Origin: Alphaproteobacteria bacterium
Lineage (GTDB): Bacteria > Pseudomonadota > Alphaproteobacteria > ATCC43930 > CGMCC-115725
Reading direction: 5' to 3'
Length of the DNA stretch: 64,000 nucleotides
Assembly: GCA_021325525.1 (NCBI GenBank)
Contig: JAJPHB010000120.1
Span: 1 to 64,000 of the forward strand
The notes beneath the pieces were generated by a model that made no database searches, was not told where the DNA came from, and was given only the letters and a program-made list of their open reading frames with translations. The position numbers and the translations under genes were made by a program. Shown here in pieces: positions 8,965-56,974 of the stretch (the first letter of the stretch is position 1; each line of letters begins with the position of its first letter).

Positions 8965-8978
8965 TTGATTCAAGTCAA
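8965..8978. promoter_or_regulatory. FixK/FNR-type binding site
   Basis: TTGATTCAAGTCAA matches TTGA-N6-TCAA perfectly and is flanked by a further symmetrical CC/GG. In alphaproteobacteria this is the FixK/FnrN/FNR site. It lies 62 bases before the start of the small membrane protein on the minus strand, a good position for an activator near -40. No plus-strand gene starts just downstream. Confidence 0.65.
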
Positions 8979-9146: not shown

Positions 9147-9222
<76 letters not shown>

Positions 9223-33998: not shown

Positions 33999-36900
33999 CT
34001 AGCGCAGCATCGCATCGGCCTTCTCGCTCTGTCCGCTAAGCACCGCGCGGATCTTGCGCGCGAGCTCGGCCCGCCGGTAAGGCTTGTTGAGGATGGGGAA
34101 CCCGTCGATGTCGTCGGTTGTCGTCGCCGCCTCGGCGGCATACCCGGTCGCCAGCAGGATCTTGATCTCGGGGTGCGCCTGGCGGACGCGCCGCGCCAGC
34201 TCGCCGCCGCTCATCCCCTGCGGCATGACGAGATCGGTGAAGAGGAGGCTGACGGGCTCACCGCGCTCGATGAGCGACAGCGCTTCCGGCCCGCTCTGCG
34301 CCCTCTGGACACGGTACCCGAGCTCTTCGAGGGTCGCCGCGGTCACTTCGAGGATGTCGCGATCATCCTCGACCATGAGGATCGTCTCCGAGCCGGTGGG
34401 CGGCTCGGAGCCGGCTCGGTAGCTCGTTTCGTGCCCGGGCATGACCCCGGACGCCTTGGGCAGGTAGAGGCTGACCGTCGTCCCGATGCCGACGACGCTC
34501 TCGATGGCGACATGGCCGCCCGATTGCTTGACGAAGCCGTGGACTTGACTCAGCCCGAGGCCGCTGCCCTTCCCAACCTCCTTGGTGGTGAAGAACGGCT
34601 CGAAGACGCGGTCGAGCTGGTCGACAGGGATGCCGTGTCCGGTATCGGCAACCGCGACGAGAACGTAGAAGCCGGGCGCGAGATCGGGCGCGGCGCCCGC
34701 GGCGATTTCGGTATTGCGCAGCGAGATGCTCAACCGTCCGCCGTTCGGCATGGCGTCCCGCGCATTGATGGCGAGGTTGAGCAGCGCATTGTCGAATTGC
34801 GCCGGATCGACCCGGCAGAGCCAGAGGTCGGGATCGGCATCGATGACGATCTCGATCGCCTCGCCGACGCCGCGCCGCAGCAAGCCCTCGCATTCCGTGA
34901 CCGCCGCGCCGAGATCGACGATTTCCGGGCGCAGCGTCTGGCGCCGGGCGAAGGCGAGGAGCTGCTGCGTCAGCCGCGCGCCGCGCGCCGCGGCGCGCTG
35001 CGCGGCGCCGACATAGCGGGCGACCGCCTTGTCGGAATGGGCTCGGCTCTCCAGGAGATCGAGGTTGCCCGTGATCGCGGTCAGCAGATTGTTGAAGTCA
35101 TGGGCGACACCGCCCGTCAACTGGCCGACGGCTTCGAGCTTCTGCGCCTGGCGGAGCACGGCTTCGAGCTTCTCGCGCTCGGCGATCTCCATGGTGAGCT
35201 GCCGCGTCCGCTCCGCGACGCGCTCTTCGAGCGTCTCGGTCAGGCGTCGCAGCGCTTCCTGCGTGTCGCGCTGCTTCGTAATGTCGGTGTTCGTGCCGAA
35301 CCAGCGCAGGATGCGGCCATCCGTGCCCCGAACCGGGACGACGCGCGTCAGGAAGGAGCGGAAGACGCCGTCGGCGCCGCGGATGGGGAACACCATCTCG
35401 AATGGCTCGCCGGTGGCAATCGAATGCCGCCAGCGCTCCAAGACCCGCGGCAGCACCTCGGGGTCGTGAACCGACTGCCAGCCCCAGCCCGCCATCTCCT
35501 CCGGGCTCTTCCCGGTGTAGTCGTACCAGCGCCGGTTGAACCAGAAGATCCAGCCGTCGGAGCGCGCCATCCAGGTGAGCTGCGGGATCGATTCGGCGAG
35601 GGTTCGGAAGTGCTCTTCGCTCTCGCGCAGCGCCTCCTCCGCTTGCTTGCGCGCGGTGATGTCGGTGCAGGCGCCGACGAGGTAGGTCGGCTCGCCTTGC
35701 GCGTCGTGCTCCATCTTGGCGCGGTCGTTGAGCCAGCGGATGCTGCCATCGGGCAGCATCACGCGGTACTCCATCGAGAAATCGGCGCCGCGACGGCAGG
35801 CTTCGACGGCGAGGAGCAGGGCGGCGCGATCCTCCGGATGCACCCGCGCCATGGCATCCGCCGTCGTCCCGACCCTCTCGCCCGGGGCGAATCCGAAGAG
35901 ACGTTTCAAATTGTCGTCGAAATCCAGAAACTCGCCGTTGCGCGGGTTCCACCGAAAGGTGCCGGTGTCCGAAGCTGCCATCGCCGCGGTGAGCACCTCT
36001 CGATGCTTCCGCAACGCCGCCTCGGCATGGGCCCGCTCGATCGTGATCGCCGCCGTCCGCGTCACGATCTCGACCCATTGCATGTCCTGTGGCGCTGGGT
36101 CGCGCGGCGCGCGATAGTAAGTGGCGAAGGTGCCGAGGATCTTGCCGCTCGAACCGAAGATGGGCGTCGACCAGCCCGAGCGCAGATCGTAGGGTGCGAC
36201 GAATTCGACGAAGCGCTCCCATTGCGGGTCGGCGCTGAAATCGGGAACGGCTACGGCCTCGCCGCGAGACGCGGCAAGGCAGCAGACGCCGATCGCCGAG
36301 CTGACCGCGATGCCGGCGACGGCTGCATTGAAGGCCGGCGGCAGGCTCGGGCCGATGCCCCGCTCGAAATGCGTCCCCGCCTCGTTGAGCAGGAGGATCG
36401 AACCAAGCATCCCGTTGCCGGCCTGCCGCTCCATCGCGTCAATGAGAAAGCCGAGCACTTCGTCGGGCGGCGCGCCCATGACGAGCATCTGCAGAGCCCG
36501 CCTCTGGCATTCCAGTAGCGCTTCCGCGCGCTTGCGCTCGTTCACGTCCTGGCAGAGCGCAATGAGGTGCTGAGGCTGGCCGGCCGCATCCCGCGTCAGC
36601 GAGACGCTGCTCTGCACCCAGATGACGGCGCCGTTCTTGCGCACATATCGCGTCTCGACGACGAAGCTCGGCATCCGGCCAGCGAGCAGGCCGTCGATCA
36701 GCTTCTGCGTCTGCGCCCAGTCGTCGGGATGCATCAGCCGGGCGCAATCCATCTTCGAGAGCTCTTCCGCGGAATAGCCGGTGATGGCGCAGAGGGCGGA
36801 GTTGACCTGCAAGAACGTTGTCGACGGGGTCAGCACCGCGATCCCGGCGGCCGTCGAATCGAAGAGCGCCCGCAAGCGTTCCTCGCTGTCGCGCAAGGCC

Positions 36901-37880
36901 GCTTCCGCCTTCTTGCGGTCGGTGATGTCAACCAGCATGTTGACGGCGCCGACCAGCGCGCCCGATGCGTCGCGCAGCGGCGTCGGGTAGGGGATAAAGG
37001 GTACGCGCGTGCCGTCCGGGCCCTCGGCAATCGCCTCCTGACCCCTGATTGGCCGGTTTTCCTTCAGGGCAACGGCCATCGGACACTCGTCATGCGCCAT
37101 CGGCCGGCCGTCGGGCCAGAAGAGGCGCCAAGTGACGCACCATTCGTCGCTGCCTAGGGCCGGGCGACGGCCCGCGAGTTTGACCGCGGCGTCGTTGTAG
37201 AAGGTGATCCGCCCGGCGGCGTCGGTCGTGTAGACGGCGGCGGGGAGCGCTTCGAGAAGGTCGCGGAAGCGCTCGTCGCGCTCGCGCAGCGTCTCCTCTG
37301 CGCGCTTCAGCTCCGCCTCGGCTTGCCGGCGTTCGAGCGCGATCCCCGCGAGGTGGATCGCGATCTCGATCAGCTCGGGATTGTCCGGCTGCGGATCGCG
37401 CGGGCGATCGTAATACATGGCGAAGGAAGCCAGCACCTGCCCGGTCGAGCTCCGGACCGGCGTCGATCGGCAAGCGCGAAGCCCGCAGGAGAGCGCCGGC
37501 TCGCGCCATGCTGCCGCCCACCGCTCGTCCGTGGCGATGTCCGGCACGAACACCGCGACGCCCTCGCCGGCGGCTTGGCCGCAGGGATCGAGATAGGGCG
37601 GCGTGATGGGCGCGCCGTCGAGCGCCGCTTGGTAGGATTCAGGAAGGTTGGGAGCGCTGCCGCGGCAGAGGTGCGTGCCATCCTCGGCGACCACGAGTAT
37701 GGCGCAGCGCAGTCCCTCCTCCTGCCTCTCGATGAAGCGGACAAGTTCGGCGAGGCTTGCCTCGAGGGGAGCGCCGGTCGCCACCAATTCGAGGATACGC
37801 TTCTCTCCGGCGAGCAGCGCATTCGCCCGACGGAGCGCCGCGTCCGCGCTCGCCGCACCGGTCTGACCGTTGTCCCTCAT
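33999..37880 (-). CDS. Multi-sensor hybrid histidine kinase (GAF-PAS-PAS-GAF-PAS-PAS-HisKA-HATPase-REC)
   Basis: A 1293-residue soluble protein without membrane segments. In order: GAF (about 25-190), PAS (205-325), PAS (335-450), GAF (465-620), PAS (635-750), PAS (765-880), coiled linker, HisKA with the phospho-acceptor His927 in [13 protein letters not shown], an HATPase domain with [20 protein letters not shown] and [13 protein letters not shown], and a C-terminal receiver with Asp1216 in LLFTDLVMP. Both GAF domains share a SxxxYYxxPRDP segment, so one is probably a duplicate of the other. No cysteine or His pattern for haem or phytochrome chromophore was recognised. No response-regulator gene is adjacent. 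Confidence 0.93.
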
Positions 37881-47863: not shown

Positions 47864-48641
47864 AGTTGTGGATATGGTCGAACTCCGGGTCAGCGTCGCG
47901 GAACTTCTTGCGGATGCGCTTGATGAACGTCCGGACATTGGCGCGGAACCCCTCCGCGCCATAGCCGGCGACGAAATCCTTGCCGTGGACGAGATCATAG
48001 ATCTCGCGATAGGAGACGTCCTCGCCGGTGCGCAGGGCGAGCAGCGCCACGATCTTGAACTCGGTCAGCGTCAGGTCGAGCGGCTGGCCGGCCCAGTTCG
48101 CGCGGCTGATGTCGAAGCGCAGCTCCAGCTTGTCGAGATGGAGGACGTCGCCGATGTTGCGCCGACCGTCGGCATCAACCGGCGGGCGCGTTCCCTCGGT
48201 GATGAGGCGCAGGCGCTTCACCAGGATCGAAAGGCGCCGCGACTTGTCGATGAAATCGACGGCGCCGCCTTCGAGCGCCGCCTCCTCGTAGATGTCGTCG
48301 CTCAGCACGGTCAGGAAGATGACGGGGGTCGTCGTGCCGGCCCGCCTGAGGCTGCGCAGGACTTCGAGCCCGTTCATTCCCGGCATGCGCCAGTCGAGCA
48401 GCACGACATCGGCGCTGCCGTTGCCGGCAAAGAATTCGAGCGCCTGGGCCCCGTTCGAGAAGCTGGTGACGGCATAGCCTTCGTCGATGAGGTTGAGCCC
48501 CAGCGACTCGCGGAAAAGGTCGTCATCGTCAACGAGGACTATATGCGGCGGAGGCACCGCTGCGCTGTCGATGCTCGTCGACGAGTTGCTGAAAACAGCG
48601 CTCGGGGCGCTGCTCGACAATGTCATTGCTTCTGACTTCAT
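47826..48641 (-). CDS. Two-component response regulator, winged-helix type
   Basis: A receiver (residues 32-150; acidic pocket VLVDDDD, phospho-Asp83 in VVLLDWRMPGMNG, Lys in FIDKSRRLS) and a C-terminal OmpR/PhoB-type winged helix (LDLTLTEFKIVALLALRTGE, then FRANVRTFIKRIRKKFRD). The given start lies 113 bases inside the upstream lipoprotein gene; alternatives are ATG at 48626 and GTG at 48557, the last being right before VPPPHIVLVDDDD and giving the usual receiver length. The kinase gene overlaps its 3' end, so they form a pair. Confidence 0.92.
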   Translation of the reverse strand: MKSEAMTLSSSAPSAVFSNSSTSIDSAAVPPPHIVLVDDDDLFRESLGLNLIDEGYAVTSFSNGAQALEFFAGNGSADVVLLDWRMPGMNGLEVLRSLRRAGTTTPVIFLTVLSDDIYEEAALEGGAVDFIDKSRRLSILVKRLRLITEGTRPPVDADGRRNIGDVLHLDKLELRFDISRANWAGQPLDLTLTEFKIVALLALRTGEDVSYREIYDLVHGKDFVAGYGAEGFRANVRTFIKRIRKKFRDADPEFDHIHNYAGFGYRWVASG

Positions 48642-54423: not shown

Positions 54424-54498
54424 TGGCTCCCGGGGAGGGATTCGAACCCCCGGCCAAGCGGTTAACAGCCGCTTGCTCTACCACTGAGCTACCCGGGA
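54424..54498 (-). tRNA. tRNA-Asn (anticodon GTT)
   Basis: On the minus strand it begins TCCCGGGTAGCTCAGTGG and ends CCCGGGAGCCA. The acceptor and T-stems pair fully, the anticodon stem AGCGG/CCGCT encloses the loop CTGTTAA (anticodon GTT), and the CCA end is encoded. It is 75 bases long. Confidence 0.97.
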
Positions 54499-54614: not shown

Positions 54615-55748
54615 TCAGGCGCTGATGACGAGACGAAGCGTGTCGACGAGCTCGGAGCCGCGAAACGGTTTTGCGAGAAACGGCGTCGCGCCGCCGATCG
54701 ACGGCTCGCCGCGTTCGGAATAGGCCGACATGAAGACGACCTTGATGTTGGGGCGGATCATGCGCGCCCGGCGGGCGACCTCATAGCCATTGATGTCGCC
54801 GGGCATGACGATATCGGTGCAGAGGACGTCGATGGGCTCCGCTTCCGCCAGCCTGCGCAGCGCTTCGGCGCCATCCGCGGCTGCGATCACCGTGAAGCCG
54901 ACGCGCTGCAGCACCTTGCCGATGTAGTCGCGCACATCGGCATCGTCTTCGACGACCATGATGCGTGCGCCGGCATCGGCGATCGCCATTTCGGCGGGCT
55001 GCGGCCGTGGCCGGTTCATCAGAAGCCCGCCGACGACGGCGGCGCAGCCGCGGGCGGCCTCCCGTGCCGCGGCGAGGTGATTGACCAATCCTGCGCTCTC
55101 GGTTCGCCGGATCGCGAAGTCGAGATTGCCGAGGACGGTGGTGAGGAAGCGTTCGAGCTCCTGCCCGGCCCGGACGACCCTGCGGCGGTCATCGGCCCGG
55201 CGGACATGCAGCCTTGCAATCCGCCGCCGTTGCCGCGCGAGCAAGTCTTGCAGTCTCGCCGCCCGCGCCTCTGCCCGCGCCTCGCGCAGCGCCCTCTCGC
55301 GGGTCTTGTTGCCCATCTCGGCGGCGACAATGGCCAGCGCCGACAGGATGAGGAGGGCGATGAGGATGAGAGCCGGAAGCTGCCAAGGCGGCGCCGACAA
55401 CGGGCCGAGGCTGCCGAGCGCGAATGCGACAAGCCCGGCCAGCAGGGCCAACGCGGCGGCAAGCAGGGCGAGCGCGAAGTTCAAGAGAGCGGGTCGGAGC
55501 GCGCGCTCGCCACGCCCCCGGCGGCGAGCCGCGCGGGCAGGGCGGCCAATGGCGCCTCCGGTCTGCGCGGCACTGAATTTAAGAACGGCGGAGGCCGCCG
55601 CTCGGATCTCCCGCCAGGTCGCCGCCGATGCATGATCGCCCTGCGCCGCCGCGAGCTCCGCCCGCTCGCCTAGCCGCCGCAGGGCGTCGCGCCCGTAACG
55701 GGCGCACATTTCGTGAGCGATCCGCTTTGCCGCCTCTTCGTCATCCAT
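54615..55748 (-). CDS. Membrane-anchored receiver protein with degenerate kinase core
   Basis: From the ATG at 55748 the protein has 377 residues. Residues 1-60 are a soluble helical region (MDDEEAAKRIAHEMCARYGR). Two membrane helices lie near 86-112 and 121-143. A coiled coil (about 149-190) leads to a segment, ELERFLTTVLGNLDFAI, that lines up with the histidine-kinase dimerisation helix [15 protein letters not shown] of the hybrid kinase at 34 kb, but the His is gone. No ATPase domain follows: the receiver (about 261-377; phospho-Asp312 in LCTDIVMPG, Lys360 in LAKPF) begins directly. It is best read as a collapsed hybrid kinase kept as a phosphate-accepting membrane protein. Confidence 0.88.
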   Translation of the reverse strand: MDDEEAAKRIAHEMCARYGRDALRRLGERAELAAAQGDHASAATWREIRAAASAVLKFSAAQTGGAIGRPARAARRRGRGERALRPALLNFALALLAAALALLAGLVAFALGSLGPLSAPPWQLPALILIALLILSALAIVAAEMGNKTRERALREARAEARAARLQDLLARQRRRIARLHVRRADDRRRVVRAGQELERFLTTVLGNLDFAIRRTESAGLVNHLAAAREAARGCAAVVGGLLMNRPRPQPAEMAIADAGARIMVVEDDADVRDYIGKVLQRVGFTVIAAADGAEALRRLAEAEPIDVLCTDIVMPGDINGYEVARRARMIRPNIKVVFMSAYSERGEPSIGGATPFLAKPFRGSELVDTLRLVISA

Positions 55749-55837
55749 TTGGCCGAGGACTCCGCCGAGCGCTAGACCTCGTTCAAGCCACCGCAATCAG
55801 TGTCGAAAATGCGCCGATCCGGCAAGGCAAATGTGGC

Positions 55838-56593
55838 TCATGCCGTCCGCCGGGCCGCGCCGCCGAGGGCGCGATCCGCCATTGCGATCTGCCGCAAGCG
55901 ATCGAGATCGCGGATGGTCACGATGTGCTTCTCGATATCGACGATCCGCTCGGCCCGGAACCAGTGGAGCGTCCGGTTGATGTGAACGATGGTCAATCCG
56001 AGATGGTCGGCAATGTGCTGCTGCGTCAGCGGCAGGACGTAGCTGCTCGGGGATGCGAGGTTGCGGCGGCGCAGGCGCTCGTGGAAATCGAGGAGCATGA
56101 GGGCAAGCCGCTCGCGTGCGTCGAGCCTGCCGATGGCTCCGGCGACGCCGTCGCCGCGGCGCTGGGCCTCGGAGATGAGCCAGGCGATATATGTCGCGGT
56201 CGGCGGGGATGTCATCAGGTTCGCCACAGTGCCGGCGTCGATCGTGTGGATCATGGCGGGCGACACGGTGACGACCTCGTCGGGTGCGCGGTCGAGGAGA
56301 GCCGACTCGATGCCGATCACGTCACCCGGCACGTAGATCGACAGGATCGCCCGCCGACCATCCGTCCAATAGCGGGTGCGCGTAGCCCAACCGCGGTAAA
56401 GGTGGAATAGCCCATCGCTCGGCCGATCGGGCCGGATCAAGACGGTGCCGCTGCCGACGCTCCGCAAGGGAGCGGACAAAGAGGCGGCATGCAGTTTACG
56501 CGCCCCTTGCAGCAGGTTCTCGGCGAGCCTCGGCCGGCAATCCGGCCTCAGCAATGAAACGTCCGAACGCTCCTTCTTCGATTCCACGGCCAT
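55838..56593 (-). CDS. Crp/Fnr-family transcriptional regulator
   Basis: A 251-residue protein from the ATG at 56593, behind GAGGGAGGACGAC. Residues 30-140 are a cyclic-nucleotide-binding-like beta barrel; residues 160-235 are the helix-turn-helix LPLTQQHIADHLGLTIVHIN, NRTLHWFRAERIV. There is no N-terminal Cys cluster for an iron-sulfur centre, so it is not a classical oxygen-sensing FNR, and the recognition helix (VHINR) lacks the FNR Glu-x-x-Ser-Arg. An FNR-like site lies 135 bases upstream. The effector is unknown. Confidence 0.88.
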   Translation of the reverse strand: MAVESKKERSDVSLLRPDCRPRLAENLLQGARKLHAASLSAPLRSVGSGTVLIRPDRPSDGLFHLYRGWATRTRYWTDGRRAILSIYVPGDVIGIESALLDRAPDEVVTVSPAMIHTIDAGTVANLMTSPPTATYIAWLISEAQRRGDGVAGAIGRLDARERLALMLLDFHERLRRRNLASPSSYVLPLTQQHIADHLGLTIVHINRTLHWFRAERIVDIEKHIVTIRDLDRLRQIAMADRALGGAARRTA

Positions 56594-56900
56594 GTCGTCC
56601 TCCCTGCAGGGCAGACCGGAGCGATTTCGGTGGTTGCTTGCTGCTACGAGATTGCGGCGGACGACAACGTCGCTTTGTTCTATGCCGTTCCGTCCGCTAT
56701 GTGGAGCAATCAGGGCATTTTGCGGCAATGATCTACGTCAATCTCCCCCTGATGAAGGTCAAGAACTAGCGGCACGATAGAACCGTAGGTGGGAAAGCGC
56801 AATAATCGCTTGCGTTCGATGAAGGCATTGCAAGGCAACTTCCGCGCACATTCTCTGCGCCTTGCAAAGGCGGCGGAGCTGCTTTGGGGCAAACGGGGTG
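56594..56900. other. Intergenic region between the Crp/Fnr gene and tRNA-Cys
   Basis: The 307 bases carry no supported gene. They contain the FNR-like palindrome at 56728-56741 and, near the tRNA, a short stem CGCCTT-GCA-AAGGCG (56858-56872) that could end the tRNA-Cys transcript. The region is less GC-rich than its surroundings, as expected for promoters. Confidence 0.45.
56728..56741. promoter_or_regulatory. FNR/FixK-like site upstream of the Crp/Fnr regulator
   Basis: ATGATCTACGTCAA matches TTGA-N6-TCAA with one base changed. It lies 135 bases before the regulator start on the minus strand. It may place the regulator under FixK/FNR control, or be bound by another Crp-type protein. Confidence 0.4.
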
Positions 56901-56974
56901 TGGAGGCCGGAAGCGGAATCGAACCGCTGTACGAGGATTTGCAGTCCTCTGCATAGCCACTCTGCCATCCGGCC
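56901..56974 (-). tRNA. tRNA-Cys (anticodon GCA)
   Basis: On the minus strand it begins GGCCGGATGGCAGAGTGG and ends TTCCGGCCTCCA. The acceptor stem pairs fully, the anticodon stem AGGA/TCCT encloses CTGCAAA (anticodon GCA), and CCA is encoded. It is 74 bases long. Confidence 0.97.

Follow-up and report, generated by a model that had tools for sequence, protein, structure and literature searches.

A membrane-anchored alphaproteobacterial receiver protein with a HisKA-like hairpin that lacks both the phospho-acceptor histidine and the ATPase domain

FixT of Caulobacter and Sinorhizobium is described as consisting of one receiver domain, with a 4-Cys motif; it inhibits the autophosphorylation of FixL and is part of the microaerobic regulon that also includes fixK (PMC7078487). 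The receiver-like protein Osp of Rhodobacter sphaeroides is reported to inhibit the hybrid kinase CckA directly (PMC9430884). RetS of Pseudomonas, according to the published accounts, blocks GacS by forming a DHp-DHp heterodimer, for which its own phosphorelay residues are not needed (PMC4866733, PMC12148439). The protein described here is encoded in a stretch of 64,000 nucleotides from an Alphaproteobacteria bacterium (contig JAJPHB010000120.1, positions 1 to 64,000; the window, hereinafter) and can be compared with each of these systems. Like FixT, it is a receiver protein whose gene neighbourhood links it to a FixK-like gene and FNR-like boxes, but it is membrane-anchored, contains a DHp-like hairpin and has three cysteines in the whole translation (Cys15, Cys235 and Cys310) where FixT has the 4-Cys Fe-S motif. 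The receiver is accompanied by 260 further residues with two membrane helices, and the protein is not of the FixT/Osp single-domain type. Osp is a functional parallel, but a single-domain one, without membrane anchor or hairpin, whereas RetS, a hybrid kinase, possesses a kinase region, and the protein under study has no catalytic domain.

The replacement of the DHp histidine is also seen in the pseudo-kinase DivL, where a Tyr takes its place in the alignment with DivL 4q20; DivL, however, keeps the ATPase domain and is not known to have a receiver. The order of signalling helix, DHp hairpin and C-terminal receiver is the same as in the HDFNN/CckA-type hybrid HisKA kinases, including a hybrid kinase encoded elsewhere in this genome (C100; loci L002/L234) and the large kinase of the window (33999-37880). 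In contrast to these kinases, our protein lacks the ATPase domain, has Gln in the place of His within an H-box that reads QELER, and carries at its front end two membrane helices and a helical domain of about 60 aa instead of the PAS and GAF domains of the window kinase. Of the features of a HisKA sensor kinase, the DHp hairpin preceded by a signalling helix is thus present, whereas the phospho-acceptor His and HATPase_c are both absent; with these two defining features failing, the protein is not a histidine kinase.

The gene is an ORF on the minus strand that runs from ATG to stop and encodes 377 aa, with a TTG at 55796 as a possible alternative start; its codon-position GC (0.75/0.53/0.82) is like that of other genes of the window. 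It comprises the following features:

54615-55748, minus strand: the whole gene, consisting of N-terminal helical domain, two membrane helices, signalling helix, pseudo-DHp hairpin and receiver (ORF, codon-position GC, AlphaFold)
55560-55748, minus strand: N-terminal helical domain, residues 1-63, kin to stand-alone proteins of about 60 aa in relatives (searches, AlphaFold)
55410-55490, minus strand: membrane helix 1, residues 87-113 (AlphaFold, hydropathy)
55314-55382, minus strand: membrane helix 2, about residues 123-145, parted from helix 1 by a loop of about 9 residues (AlphaFold, hydropathy)
55164-55313, minus strand: Arg-rich signalling helix, residues 146-195, predicted to be continuous with membrane helix 2 and the hairpin (AlphaFold)
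55104-55163, minus strand: pseudo-DHp helix 1, residues 196-215 (QELERFLTTVLGNLDFAIRR), with the Gln196 codon, 55161-55163, at the phospho-His position (profile, register, superposition)
55017-55094, minus strand: pseudo-DHp helix 2, residues 219-244 (profile, AlphaFold)
54969-55016, minus strand: linker of 16 residues, 245-260, in the place of the ATPase domain of a kinase (AlphaFold; no HATPase_c match)
54618-54968, minus strand: receiver domain, residues 261-377, with the Asp312 codon at 54813-54815 (Pfam PF00072, alignment)

The full-length AlphaFold2 model was built with 29 companion rows that cover the receiver alone, the remainder being predicted from the sequence itself. It shows helices at residues 3-35, 39-63 and 87-113, a single helix with a hydrophobic start at 123-215, a turn at 216-218 and a further helix at 219-244, followed by the linker and the receiver; pLDDT of the N-terminal helix pair, predicted from its sequence alone, is 64-85 by blocks. 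Residues 87-122 include no charged residue, Arg-rich stretches precede helix 1 and come after helix 2, and both hydropathy and charge agree with two membrane helices. The same considerations, in particular the Arg-rich residues 64-86, which point to a cytosolic N-terminus, indicate that both ends of the protein are probably cytosolic. Inside membrane helix 1, a 21-bp unit occurs twice in tandem (window 55436-55476), which suggests that this helix grew by duplication.

The receiver yields the single Pfam match over its cut-off (PF00072, 67.4 bits against a cut-off of 30.2, residues 263-371), six other rows falling below theirs, and HATPase_c does not match the protein among Pfam rows up to E 10. 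Residues D268, D312 and K360 are invariant across an alignment of 30 receivers, and E267 and S341 are also kept; because the acid pocket and the Asp, Ser and Lys residues are all in place, the receiver should, judging from its residues, be competent for phosphate uptake. The best 25 of 87 NCBIfam models all lie over the receiver, with PRK13557 first, followed by CpdR and then CckA. Many of the best receiver matches are themselves receivers inside long open frames typical of hybrid kinases, and the best match within the same genome is the C100 hybrid kinase. A position nested among hybrid-kinase receivers is not borne out by a tree of 86 rows, which places this receiver outside the supported 53-row clade that holds them (38 hybrid receivers and 15 others), at a poorly supported fork. 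A structure search with the full-length model returned receivers exclusively among the best 50 rows. The best structure match of the receiver, at about 40% identity, is PDB entry 28tm, which is labelled a human Rossmann-fold protein; this label may, at a guess, be a mis-assignment of a bacterial receiver.

Relatives of the N-terminal part and hairpin were sought with residues 1-255 in overlapping samples of 39 family, 43 order (including the same 39), 385 class and 398 phylum genomes, with at most six first-look candidates scored per genome in the class and phylum searches. Orthologues of the same architecture, which the preliminary description had proposed looking for, were absent from the family, order, class and phylum genomes searched, and conservation is therefore unusable as an argument for function. 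The family genomes gave 15 matching rows in 10 other genomes, 12 of which cover the N-terminal part alone, some with an internal stop, and the sole genome of the same genus likewise matched in the N-terminal domain alone. Two further family-search matches, L045 (residues 129-251) and L046 (107-204), were rejected as weak coil or hairpin matches, and L048 of the family search and L074 of the class search look like chance. When the whole protein was searched against 61 genomes, the matches listed were centred on the receiver. Seven places from that search were examined, including two matches that begin at residues 175 and 182, with an internal stop; these were dismissed as short stand-alone receivers with no in-frame hairpin, another (L241) is part of a true kinase, and the rest score below 0 bits or go unreported with the DHp profile described below. 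No relative was detected among the plasmids or in GTDB genomes scanned with six short peptides (284 pattern matches). The PHROGs matches listed were to receivers apart from a single tail-fibre row with E 0.81, and residues 1-255 had two matches among PDB sequences (E 0.32 and 6). In the open-access literature, as far as titles and the beginnings of abstracts disclose, we found no description of a membrane-anchored receiver with a degenerate DHp.

The searches did assign the N-terminal domain to a family of small helical proteins of about 60 aa that stand alone in relatives (L142 1779-1946, L143, L039-L044, L047 and L049-L053). At two places in one of these genomes, G034, members of the family lie beside Crp-family genes in convergent orientation (L142, L143), and none of the matches listed for the 39 family genomes joins this domain to a kinase. 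A loss complementary to that in our protein is seen in a 309-aa ORF of locus L233 (1526-2452), which has an ATPase and a receiver and no DHp; it is perhaps a truncated hybrid kinase, and the opposite-strand frame at its start looks insertion-sequence-like by eye.

The kinship of the N-terminal domain bears on the first alternative to the reading that we favour below, namely that the protein is an output protein. Another kinase or phosphotransfer protein would phosphorylate Asp312, and the resulting change would pass through the hairpin, the signalling helix and the membrane helices to the N-terminal domain, which would bind a target such as the Crp-like regulator. The retained receiver residues, the one predicted helix that is unbroken from membrane to hairpin, and the occurrence of the N-terminal family both on its own and next to Crp-family genes are all consistent with such signalling. 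However, the N-terminal helix pair is predicted from sequence at the pLDDT given above, and we consider an output function unlikely.

The context of the gene is defined by a Crp/FixK-like gene, two FNR-like boxes and two tRNA genes:

55838-56593, minus strand: Crp/FixK-like regulator gene, 89 bp upstream of the receiver gene and on the same strand (ORF, Pfam, NCBIfam)
56728-56741, no strand assigned: FNR/FixK-like box with one mismatch to TTGAYNNNNRTCAA (pattern scan)
56749-56762, no strand assigned: second FNR/FixK-like box with one mismatch, 21 bp from the first (pattern scan)
54424-54498, minus strand: tRNA-Asn flanking the gene pair (tRNA scan)
56901-56974, minus strand: tRNA-Cys flanking the gene pair (tRNA scan)

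The start codon of the Crp/FixK-like gene is an ATG at 56593, preceded by what looks by eye like an AGGGAGG-type ribosome site. The gene scores 54 bits with the Crp HTH model of Pfam and 67.6 bits with the FixK model of NCBIfam, which is below the 300-bit cut-off of the latter, and has a paralogue in the genome that is 56% identical. It is possibly transcribed together with the receiver gene. The two boxes are 21 bp, or two helical turns, apart and lie 135-170 bp before the ATG of the Crp/FixK-like gene; in the whole window, sites with up to one mismatch to TTGAYNNNNRTCAA number 6 against 1.78 expected. A scan for sigma-70 promoters found none. A FixL-like kinase is encoded elsewhere in the genome (498 bits, below the cut-off of 850), and its region carries three further FNR-like boxes. 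A perfect box of this kind, TTGATTCAAGTCAA, is also present at window 8965-8978, near tRNA-Lys (9147-9222).

The gene pair is enclosed by tRNA-Cys and tRNA-Asn, which are 2,402 bp apart. For comparison we used 80 named ValS loci, 54 of which contain tRNA-Cys and 42 both tRNAs, together with an overlapping set of 20 PCM loci from relatives (12 with both). Where both tRNAs are present (42 named loci), they are separated by 6 to 4,296 bp, and by less than 1 kb in 34 of these loci. By tblastn, the Crp-family gene was absent from both the 20 PCM loci and the 80 ValS loci, and the N-terminal domain and the hairpin were absent from the 80 ValS loci; the pair is missing from all 42 loci with two tRNAs, from the rest of the 80 and from the 20 loci of relatives. 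The interval between the tRNAs appears to be variable and to acquire small sets of genes, and no direct repeats are evident at the flanks of the pair. The host is related to the MAG 'Rhodospirillales bacterium RYN_450' (ValS 78% identical) and to Stella (71-73%). Receivers that occur at the loci of relatives (L075, L078, L083, L153 and L157) were rejected as orthologues; two of them (L075 and L083) are ChvI-like by eye, and L075, L078 and L083 group in the tree with the receiver at 48198. The latter, a window gene at 48198-48548 that is also ChvI-like by eye, is located about 6 kb from tRNA-Asn, and its closest kin in the tree, the same three receivers, lie on the side of tRNA-Asn, at a distance of up to about 0.5-4.5 kb from it; a sensor-kinase-like frame comes after the ChvI-like receiver in L075 and L083. 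The region of the 48198 receiver seems to be rearranged in this genome.

Occurrence in a single genome, at a variable spot between tRNA genes, and an H-box degenerated from HDFNN to QELER would all be expected of a hybrid kinase in decay, a functionless remnant from which the ATPase was deleted and in which the histidine drifted. A decaying gene should, however, have lost the catalytic residues of the receiver, which are kept, and the frame is open and of gene-like composition. Furthermore, none of the matches listed for the 39 family genomes has the N-terminal domain fused to a kinase, so that the front half of the protein is not accounted for by a simple deletion within an existing kinase. 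We consider decay unlikely.

The case for a kinase-derived hairpin was built on a profile of DHp segments. Out of 40 H-box segments, 36 of the HDFNN type, from this genome and its relatives, were used for the profile, and the four with HELNN, HDLNN or HELRN were left out. Residues 145-258 score 13.8 bits, a value equalled by 4 of 20,000 shuffles of the segment, and the full-length protein scores 12.8 bits, equalled by 5 of 20,000 shuffles. In a ranking of 1,108 gene-like ORFs taken from the window and 80 loci, our protein comes third with 12.7 bits. The two above it are HDFNN kinases, one of them itself a row of the profile, and the ORF below it, a HisKA-like sequence of a different type, scores 8.3 bits. 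As a control, we scored 21 segments upstream of receivers without a recognised H-box. The segment of our protein reached 14.6 bits and that of L030, a segment that includes the end of a genuine kinase hairpin, 34.8 bits, while 16 of the other 19 were reported by the profile, the best at 0.2 bits. The Pfam HisKA model, in contrast, did not match the protein. The expectation that residues 145-260 would prove HisKA-like in a profile search thus held for the profile of the clade and failed for the general model.

The position of the lost histidine emerges from the same comparison. When the 20-residue H-box cores of the 40 kinases were slid over the protein without gaps, the optimum fell at Gln196, with a mean of 6.0 identities compared to 4.5 or fewer elsewhere, so that HDFNNLLT is met by QELERFLT and the phospho-acceptor His by Gln196. 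From residue 196 on, 10 of 20 residues are identical to the C100 hybrid kinase and 7 of 20 to the large window kinase; the histidine position is assigned to Gln196 because QELERFLTTVLGNLDFAIRR meets the C100 core with this number of identities. Among the 13 H-box segments of the same genome, C100 is the best match to the DHp core (63 against 53 for the next), but segments from other genomes match the hairpin as well (66, 62, 62 and 62), so descent from C100 is left unsupported. The resemblance of the ELERFLTTVLGNLD segment to the kinases is, as far as the sequence comparison goes, confirmed to be more than chance.

Folded alone without an alignment, residues 145-259 form a confident hairpin in AlphaFold (pLDDT 89.6 for the best of five models and 62.2 for the worst). 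A Foldseek search with this model gave no match with E ≤ 0.001; RetS-GacS and GacS structures appeared at ranks 3, 5 and 6 with E 0.3-0.5, and 7n0e and 7z8n, which are among the best rows in the same E range, reach VIA Z scores (8.0 and 7.9) that unrelated hairpins also attain. Helical hairpins are frequent in structure libraries. The top VIA-align row is the ERS1 DHp (4mtx_C, Z 8.8 over 94 residues at 1.7 A), with unrelated chains up to 8.7, and its Z is below the value of about 13 that VIA-align advises for helical bundles. The informative part of the structure comparison is the register rather than the superposition score. By length, the GacS DHp (7n0e_A 285-342 on model residues 44-101, 58 aligned) and the ERS1 DHp (4mtx_C 310-403 on 9-102, 94 aligned) both align without gaps. 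GacS His293 and ERS1 His353, the latter of which we take to be the phospho-His of the 4mtx DHp, both coincide with residue 52 of the model, corresponding to Gln196; sequence and structure choose the identical residue for the lost phospho-His. GacS H293 is given as the mutated H1 histidine (PMC4866733), and His353 of ETR1 is the equivalent of the ERS1 residue (PMC3485614).

An unrelated coiled-coil dimeriser that happens to resemble a DHp, in what would simply be a membrane-tethered receiver, would agree with the miss by Pfam HisKA, with the many unrelated hairpins that superpose nearly as well and with the 4 of 20,000 shuffles that score as high, but is improbable given the third place among natural ORFs, the gapless register optimum at Gln196 and the agreement of two DHp structures with the sequence on that register. 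A HisKA-type DHp hairpin with His changed to Gln is the best account of the linker, a conclusion that the evidence supports, 13.8 bits being a weak score and one that the Pfam HisKA model does not echo. These results bear out most of the preliminary description. It had seen a receiver protein resembling a hybrid kinase without His or ATPase, which agrees with the PF00072 match of 67.4 bits, Gln196, the 16-residue linker and the missing HATPase_c match. The alignment by eye of its coiled coil and ELERFLTTVLGNLD-type segment with the large window kinase is matched by the 7 of 20 identities and the profile score, and the loss of the phospho-acceptor directly before a receiver by Gln196 and a receiver that starts 16 residues past the second helix. 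Its two membrane helices were recovered at about 87-113 and 123-145, and structure prediction gave a confident hairpin with Gln196 on the phospho-His.

Collectively, the computations support a hairpin that has lost its His, a receiver with intact residues, two membrane helices and the absence of an ATPase, and we tentatively favour the view, substantial but short of probable, that the protein derives by remodelling from a HisKA-type hybrid kinase, retains neither the catalytic domain nor the histidine, and works as a decoy or antagonist of hybrid kinases, tethered to the membrane. Such a protein would form dimers through its hairpin in the inner membrane and would be unable to autophosphorylate, and its targets would be true HisKA-type hybrid kinases. 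The receiver might dock on the DHp of a kinase or take phosphate from it, in the manner of FixT and Osp; alternatively, the hairpin might pair with the DHp of a kinase, as RetS does. In either mode, the protein would serve as a membrane-tethered antagonist or a phosphate sink. If co-transcribed with the Crp/FixK-like gene behind the FNR-like boxes, it could provide feedback when oxygen is limiting or under redox-related conditions. The earlier suggestion of a membrane-bound phosphate sink or competitor is plausible by analogy with the known antagonists FixT, Osp and RetS. Since S. meliloti FixT is reported not to act as a competing receiver and not to compete for phosphate (PMC7078487), the analogy favours a competitor or brake over a phosphate sink.

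A more specific form of the antagonist reading, which seems to us unlikely, makes the protein a natural dominant-negative kinase part, in which a dimeriser with neither His nor ATPase would pair through its DHp with a full hybrid kinase, or dock on it through the receiver, and silence it, being produced as feedback together with the Crp/FixK-like regulator. If this were true, DHp swapping as in RetS and receiver docking as in FixT and Osp would be united in one chain.

The protein, known from one genome, is a variation within the established group of non-catalytic two-component proteins. Histidine kinases are known to be restrained by pseudo-kinases and by lone receivers, each on its own; here the hairpin and the receiver are found in one chain from which both catalytic elements are absent. 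Remnants of this kind can escape a general family model, as Pfam HisKA found nothing where a clade-specific profile gave a weak but significant score. If the antagonist reading is true, the protein shows how a hybrid kinase can become its own inhibitor.
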